Below are positions 36,749-38,369 of a stretch of DNA of 64,000 nt, piece by piece. The first letter of the stretch is position 1, and every line of letters begins with the position of its first letter. The position numbers were made by a program, and so were the translations under genes. A model generated the notes under the pieces. The model saw only the letters and a list, made by a program, of their open reading frames with translations, was not told where the DNA came from and did no database searches. The stretch spans positions 1 through 64,000 of the forward strand of contig JASJAN010000015.1 of NCBI GenBank assembly GCA_030066985.1, written 5' to 3'. The DNA is from Desulfobacterales bacterium. Lineage in GTDB: Bacteria; Desulfobacterota; Desulfobacteria; Desulfobacterales; JAHEIW01.

Positions 36749-37024
36749 TTATCTGAATACAAAAGGAGGGGTATCATCATCGAGGGTGACATGCTTTTTC
36801 GCCCGGTTGGGTGGTTTGAGATCCTTTTTCTTACGCGGCCGGTCCCGACCGGCGAACAATCCGGACAAGATGTAAAACGAAACGCGGTAAAACAGTCGCC
36901 AAAGCTGTAATACCAAATAAAACAGGCCCATACCGAGGGCTACCTGCACAAATGTCGGTTGGGCGGAGGTCCAGATACTAAATGCCTTCCATGCTTCTAC
37001 CAGCCAATTTAAGGTAAGGTCCAT
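36749..37024 (-). CDS. Small single-helix membrane protein
   Basis: A 91-aa protein with one central membrane helix (VQVALGMGLFYLVLQLWRLF) and a basic/Pro tail (GRDRPRKKKDLKPPNRAKKH). GGAAAG lies 8 nt before the ATG. Its start overlaps the end of a candidate gene at 37009-37215. Function unknown. Confidence 0.55.
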   Translation of the reverse strand: MDLTLNWLVEAWKAFSIWTSAQPTFVQVALGMGLFYLVLQLWRLFYRVSFYILSGLFAGRDRPRKKKDLKPPNRAKKHVTLDDDTPPFVFR

Positions 37025-37601: not shown

Positions 37602-37726
37602 CATCCGATCAGGATCTCAAAAGAGGTGCTGTCTAAAAATTCAAGGTAAAGTTTTATAAAATAATACCGATAATTAAAACAACAGTGTGCAGGCGGGCAC
37701 GCTGTTTGATATAATTCCTTAGGGAG

Positions 37727-37760
37727 GGGGCGGCTCATGGTGAGCCGCCCCTACTTTTTT
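37727..37760 (+). terminator. Terminator hairpin
   Basis: GGGGCGGCTCA (37727-37737), a TGG loop, TGAGCCGCCCC (37741-37751), then CTAC and six T. An 11-bp perfect stem, about 125 nt after the 63-aa gene and 190 nt before the rhodanese gene. Confidence 0.75.
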
Positions 37761-37952: not shown

Positions 37953-38369
37953 ATGTATAAATTCAACAAAATTATCAGTATCTTAGCCTCCATATTGACA
38001 TTTTTCATCGTTTACGGGTCGCCGGTTCAGGCAGCTGCGATCGAGGTGCCGCGAATTTCAAATCACGCGGCCAAACAGATGGTTGACGACCCGGCTGTAA
38101 TTTTCATCGATGTCCGCTCAGCAAAGTCGTATTGGCGGAGCACCTCGAAAATAACCCGTGCGGTGCGTGAAGATCCCAACGCTGTGATCCAATGGACAGC
38201 TAAATATACCAAAGATAAGACCCTCATATTTTATTGTACCTGAAAAAATGAAAGAACCAGTGCCCGGGCGGCGCGTCATTTCATTGAAAATGGCTACCCA
38301 AAGGTTTACGCCCTCAAAGGCGGCTGGGCCGCCTGGAAAAAGGCCGGCTATCCAATTCAAAAAAAATAG
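37953..38369 (+). CDS. Exported rhodanese-domain protein, probable selenoprotein (TGA 38241-38243 read as Sec)
   Basis: A 138-codon frame that is interrupted only by TGA at codon 97 and ends with TAG at 38367-38369. Residues 1-28 form a signal peptide. Rhodanese blocks are FIDVRSAKSYW (52-61), LIFYCT (91-96), then after the TGA KNERTSARAARHF, and YALKGGWAAWKKAGYPI at the C-terminus. Related rhodaneses carry YCxCPNEATSAR, so the TGA sits on the catalytic Cys position, giving a C-x-U motif. A SECIS-like hairpin follows the TGA. A plain nonsense mutation is the alternative. AGG lies 6 nt before the ATG. Confidence 0.78.
38247..38285 (+). promoter_or_regulatory. Bacterial SECIS-like stem-loop
   Basis: AATGAAA (38247-38253) pairs with TTTCATT (38279-38285); an internal loop leads to GTGCC (38260-38264) pairing with GGCGC (38270-38274) around the apical loop CGGGC (38265-38269). 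The loop starts 21 nt after the TGA and has G among its first two bases, as published bacterial SECIS models require. Confidence 0.7.

Follow-up and report, generated by a model that had tools for sequence, protein, structure and literature searches.

A rhodanese gene of a Desulfobacterales bacterium with a predicted selenocysteine codon, and its candidate Sec-x-Sec relatives

A 2026 review lists the family NF041203 as “Rhodanese-like domain-containing protein form 3”, with the motif CxU and one Sec, and in its accessible text cites a 2005 Bioinformatics paper for the CxU family (PMC13188914). The CxU form is also listed in the accessible part of PMC9312934, and a rhodanese-like domain is named among the selenoproteins in the accessible part of a Deltaproteobacteria genome paper (PMC8318568). 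The protein studied here passes the NCBIfam equivalog of this family (NF041203.1, rhodanese_LYCAU, “rhodanese-related (seleno)protein”) at 148.7 bits against a cut-off of 115, and it agrees with the family in the whole-protein match and in the Cys-x-Sec motif, with no weighty difference. On this match the gene is a member of an already catalogued selenoprotein family and is not new, which agrees with the remark in an earlier, sequence-only reading of this DNA that rhodanese-related selenoproteins have been reported. Some of its relatives differ from the family as catalogued in being Sec-x-Sec, a form missing from the table of PMC13188914 in its accessible part. TsoB (NF045694, a rhodanese/DsbD fusion-like selenoprotein) also has a Sec rhodanese domain, but it is a fusion with two Sec in a UxxxxU motif according to the accessible text of PMC13188914, whereas our gene encodes a single domain with CxU and matches the TsoB model weakly (33.6 bits, cut-off 805). 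The rhodanese domain is further shared with 6mxv, a rhodanese-like family protein (E 5.9e-27), and with GlpE (1gmx; profile match, E 1.6e-9), in both of which the catalytic residue is Cys, not Sec.

The gene lies on the forward strand of the window, by which we mean the whole stretch of 64,000 nucleotides analysed here. Its features are as follows.

37953..38369, forward strand: predicted rhodanese selenoprotein gene, NF041203 member (translation, Pfam, NCBIfam 148.7 bits)
37953..38033, forward strand: probable signal peptide, residues 1-27, ending in SPVQA before AAIEVPR (by eye)
38235..38237, forward strand: codon 95, TGT, first Cys of Cys-x-Sec (TGA in 28 relatives, 16 from the order search and 12 from the phylum search)
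38241..38243, forward strand: codon 97, TGA, predicted Sec (at the catalytic Cys position in the best alignment, with PDB 6mxv_A)
38247..38285, forward strand: whole two-tier hairpin (folding; lower tier variable among relatives)
38260..38274, forward strand: apical SECIS hairpin with a 5-bp stem and a 5-nt loop, CGGGC (folding, comparison of relatives)

Translation confirmed a frame of 138 codons that ends in TAG and is interrupted solely by the TGA at codon 97, with no other stop and no frameshift. When stops are obeyed, the list of open reading frames holds a 96-aa product in place of 138 aa, the truncation that had been expected of standard gene callers. The 138-aa reading is a single PF00581 rhodanese domain (residues 38-131, E 1.3e-14, 54.9 bits, cut-off 22.2), so that rhodanese sequence does lie on both sides of the TGA, as had been proposed. 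The motif is YCTU, with Cys95 and a predicted Sec97 forming Cys-x-Sec, and it is followed at residue 98 by Lys, which is Pro in many relatives. By a crude test, 73 of 78 genes encode a hydrophobic stretch ahead of the rhodanese domain; export of the window protein is therefore likely, in keeping with the periplasmic location suggested earlier. An AlphaFold2 model built from a two-row alignment of the window protein and one relative has a mean pLDDT of 58.

The Pfam matches of the flanking reading frames (lysine-decarboxylase-like, rubrerythrin-like, flagellar rod-like, trypsin plus TPR, thioesterase, NTPase and metallo-beta-lactamase-like) give no hint of a pathway, and two small reading frames near the gene have no Pfam match. 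An ORF of 91 aa on the reverse strand (36749-37024), also with no Pfam match, resembles by eye a small opposite-strand ORF found upstream of the rhodanese gene in five relatives. Scans for promoters and terminators gave values close to those of shuffled sequence.

An in-frame TGA is what a dead allele would show, a decaying gene in which a Cys codon has mutated, and nearly the whole gene is missing from G005, a genome of the same family. Only about the last 22 codons are left there, at two places, which indicates that the rhodanese gene can be lost. The three genomes of the same genus all keep TGA at codon 97 in an open frame, at 63-65% identity, and G004, the sole same-family genome with the whole gene, has TGA at the same codon at 54% identity. 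Including the window gene, TGA occupies this codon in 76 distinct genes. Furthermore, over codons 98-138, dN is 0.05, 0.13, 0.14 and 0.20 and dS is 0.45, 0.86, 0.72 and 1.49 in comparisons with G001, G003, G002 and G004, respectively. A dN far below dS after the TGA means that this part is translated, and sequence evolution thus shows a frame that is read past the TGA. Together with the lack of any further stop or frameshift in the window gene and with a hairpin kept beyond codon demands (below), these results leave a decaying gene scarcely credible. The two remnants in G005 (L061 and L062) are 97% alike over 490 bp, and a terminator-like hairpin upstream of them is similar by eye to window positions 37726-37752.

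Searches at several depths supplied the relatives. A database search with the window protein returned one, in a same-genus MAG (L050), and a protein search of 58 genomes gave some match at E <= 0.001 in 49. When 389 genomes of the order were searched with a profile, 84 had a match at E <= 1e-15; 102 matches were listed, of which 80 were examined and the 22 weaker ones left out. The examined matches comprise 61 Cys-x-Sec, 16 Sec-x-Sec, and one each of Cys-x-Cys, Cys-x-Thr and Cys-x-Ser. A profile search of 395 genomes of the phylum found matches at E <= 1e-20 in 85 genomes; here we examined all 12 listed matches with two TGA, 8 of the 13 listed that are stop-free, and 4 with one TGA. The eight stop-free genes divide into two Cys-x-Cys, five Cys-x-Ser and one Cys-x-Ala. 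TGC or TGT at the codon-97 position was found in three examined genes (L100, L188 and L190), all more distant relatives, so the TGA does fall where some relatives have the second Cys, as had been claimed, and none of these three versions gives a sign that the TGA copies are dead. Eight paralogues (L115, L117, L189 and L191-L195) lack the TGA and encode Ser, Thr or Ala in place of Sec; they are possibly non-catalytic rhodaneses.

Decoding of UGA by SelB through a downstream hairpin is the established bacterial route to Sec. The genome of the window (5.07 Mb, 81 contigs, 97.8% complete) has all four components: tRNA-Sec (Rfam 75.2 bits, cut-off 47; called tRNA-SeC by ARAGORN, anticodon tca), SelB (376.4 bits, cut-off 242.25), SelA (614.1 bits, cut-off 267.9) and SelD (355.8 bits, cut-off 125). 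Within the SelD match (L068, C48:37903-38817) one TGA lies in frame, and SelD proteins that contain Sec are known. Alternatively, a near-cognate tRNA might read the UGA of the rhodanese gene as Trp or Cys, without any part for selenium, for which there is nothing positive beyond the fact that the identity of a residue is out of reach of sequence alone. This reading is very improbable, considering the complete Sec machinery, the position of the TGA at the Cys of other versions, and a SECIS-type hairpin that is mostly unpaired in two of the three Cys versions.

The sequence-only reading had described a two-tier hairpin. The 39 nt at 38247-38285 indeed fold, at -12.1 kcal/mol, and the loop CGGGC begins 21 nt past the TGA, as stated there; the lower tier differs from one relative to another, as some of 20 folded genes have a lower stem of their own and others have none, and the apical tier alone is shared. 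The accessible part of PMC13188914 gives constraints for bacterial SECIS elements (loop 3-9 nt, upper stem 4-16 bp, spacing 16-37 nt, energy <= -7.5, and a G among the first two loop bases), and the window hairpin falls within them, with a 5-nt loop, a 5-bp upper stem, an early loop G followed by another G, a spacing of 21 nt and -12.1. The second loop base, at +26 when counted from the T of the TGA codon, is G in every one of the 76 TGA genes. A scan of the window with Rfam at gathering thresholds returned 0 matches. The fold of the single hairpin is only mildly better than chance: four stretches were folded and gave z from -1.06 to -1.54 against dinucleotide shuffles, with 15 to 25 of 200 shuffles equally stable. 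The evidence for the hairpin is comparative.

For this comparison one exact duplicate was removed; TGA is present in 76 of the 78 rows that remained (60 Cys-x-Sec and 16 Sec-x-Sec, window gene included). All five apical pairs are present in 72 of the 76 genes and four pairs in the other 4, while synonymous redrawing of the same genes in 1000 runs left a mean of 2.34 genes, and at most 9, with all five; the 76 genes share ancestry and their counts are not independent. Sliding the pairing partner by 1-3 columns left 0 or 1 of 76 genes with all five pairs. When the window gene alone was recoded synonymously, all five pairs survived in 16 of 1000 cases, and 95 of 2000 recodings matched the stability of the real 39 nt. 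Columns 21/33 covary (T-A in 56 genes, C-G in 17, T-G in 3), as do columns 24/30 (C-G in 70, A-T in 6), and since the covarying pairs lie at third codon positions, protein constraint does not explain the covariation. In a 20-row subset the covariation score was 0.399 against a shuffled mean of 0.206, with 0 of 500 shuffles as high, and two of the five measures, pairs with two-sided change (271 of 500) and further pair types (290 of 500), were not above shuffles. The Cys-x-Cys genes L188 and L190 retain 2 and 1 of the five apical pairs; L100 retains all five and is placed inside a Cys-x-Sec group of the tree, which we tentatively read as a recent change from Sec to Cys. Sequence evolution, as compared across these genes, thus shows a hairpin under selection as RNA. 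These recoding and hairpin statistics, together with dN versus dS, were the main grounds for setting aside a pseudogene or a reassigned codon.

A SelB-type hairpin can allow selenium-dependent termination, and the 96-aa product might on that ground be the main functional form, with the tail of minor importance. That product would, however, stop at the active site, and the tail contains the conserved GGW region of the rhodanese domain and has a smaller share of differing residues than the part before the TGA in four of four comparisons, so that regulated termination as the principal role is most improbable. We infer from the machinery and the family that residue 97 is Sec. It is very probable that the UGA at codon 97 is read as Sec, and a selenoprotein with Cys-x-Sec, the central claim of the sequence-only reading, is well supported by sequence: the complete machinery, the TGA kept in relatives, the low dN relative to dS and the conserved apical hairpin all point to it. 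Neither of the two outcomes that would have spoken against that claim, a genome lacking Sec machinery or sister strains with a Cys codon plus frameshifts, turned up.

That reading had placed the TGA at the catalytic cysteine. The best alignment, a profile alignment with 6mxv_A, agrees, putting Sec97 on the Cys of YCGGGFRS with no gap and Cys95 opposite Phe, and the second domain of the same chain gives the same result. Two weaker alignments disagree and set Cys95 on the Cys of the solved protein: one made by phmmer from the single sequence, to domain 1 of 6mxv and with a gap of two residues, and one to 6kw0, a weak match of 8.1 bits. Judged by these alignments, Sec97 is more likely to be the nucleophile than Cys95.

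In the mechanism we propose, SelA and SelD would make Sec-tRNA-Sec, which SelB bound to the hairpin just downstream of the UGA would deliver. The selenol of Sec97, two residues past Cys95, would then most likely take the place of the catalytic Cys in the rhodanese loop. Outside the cytoplasmic membrane it could attack a sulfane sulfur or an oxidised compound of sulfur or selenium, and Cys95 could resolve the adduct as a selenylsulfide. Such a cycle is suggested by a selenol in a rhodanese loop with Cys at -2. That attack by Sec97 and resolution by Cys95 would make the protein a redox-linked sulfur-handling enzyme, not a plain sulfurtransferase, is a tentative proposal that we hold somewhat doubtful.

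The relatives with two TGA number 28 among the matches listed, 16 from the order (L022, L031 and L101-L114) and 12 from the phylum (L176-L187), and one of them belongs to the genus of the window. The second TGA falls exactly at the first Cys of the motif in 16 of 16 order and 12 of 12 phylum genes, and over the 78 rows the codon-95 position is TGC (44), TGT (18) or TGA (16), with no other codon. All five apical pairs are present in 15 of the 16 order genes and in all 12 phylum genes, and 27 nt separate the first UGA from the loop, a spacing inside the range of 16-37 nt in the accessible text of PMC13188914. Of eight Sec-x-Sec proteins scored against NF041203, seven exceed the cut-off (139.4 to 169.2 bits), whereas L114, on a side branch, reaches 70.8 bits. 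On a tree of the 78 rows the Sec-x-Sec label needs 9 changes, of which starred branches force 5, a rough count, as the tree rests on 110 columns, has 27 open forks and an unsettled bootstrap, leaves out the 12 phylum genes and cannot separate gain from loss of the second Sec. Two groups, of three and four rows, are entirely Sec-x-Sec, and the form therefore persists.

Four of the 28 (L031, L182, L184 and L186) encode a longer protein, whose C-terminal region of some 400 residues contains eight CxxCH motifs. These regions match solved hydroxylamine-oxidoreductase-like proteins (best E 3.2e-14, 5.5e-24, 8.6e-22 and 1.1e-29, respectively) and Pfam PF13447, and NCBIfam gave only weak partial matches, far under the cut-offs, for the three that were compared with it. 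The Cys-x-Sec gene L174 has a similar fusion to an eight-haem cytochrome region. As to context, nothing but the cytochrome fusions of relatives hints at electron transfer, and the window gene lacks such a fusion. A Sec-x-Sec rhodanese was not found in the published literature covered, which excludes most subscription papers, and the accessible text of PMC13188914 has no mention of “uxu”. Taken together, the Sec-x-Sec form probably exists, with one SECIS serving two UGAs spaced by six bases, at distances of 21 and 27 nt from its loop, and with the second Sec gained or lost several times by a one-base change between TGC/TGT and TGA, among families and within the genus of the window. Such a protein would have a diselenide or selenenyl-persulfide site, and in four genomes its Sec-x-Sec domain precedes, in one chain, an eight-haem HAO-like cytochrome that could plausibly serve as its electron partner.

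The window gene would accordingly be annotated correctly as 138 aa with Sec, not as a 96-aa fragment, and our comparison adds evidence at the RNA level for a family whose entry in the accessible part of the review gives its motif (PMC13188914). The family provides a natural series, from Cys-x-Cys through Cys-x-Sec to Sec-x-Sec, built on a single domain and a single hairpin; with it, one could test directly what a second selenium atom contributes and how one SECIS decodes two UGAs that lie close together.

At 27 loci (L025, L027, L033 and 24 others) the rhodanese gene is immediately preceded by an amino-acid-permease-like ORF with the same orientation, and the one of these that was tested matches PF13520; the ORF was seen at none of the nine genes of the window's clade in the tree, most of which were viewed with flanks of about 1.5 kb, in which it may have been missed. 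The window's own genome encodes a second Sec rhodanese on contig C3 (L002:1492-1812, reverse strand; 106 aa, FYCAUPKEAS), which has no evident N-terminal hydrophobic stretch and, at 56.5 bits to NF041203 (cut-off 115), falls outside the model. Genes like it are present in G002 (L054) and in G013 (L055), and G013 also carries a tandem pair of Sec rhodanese genes on the same strand (L052, C104:82577-83420).
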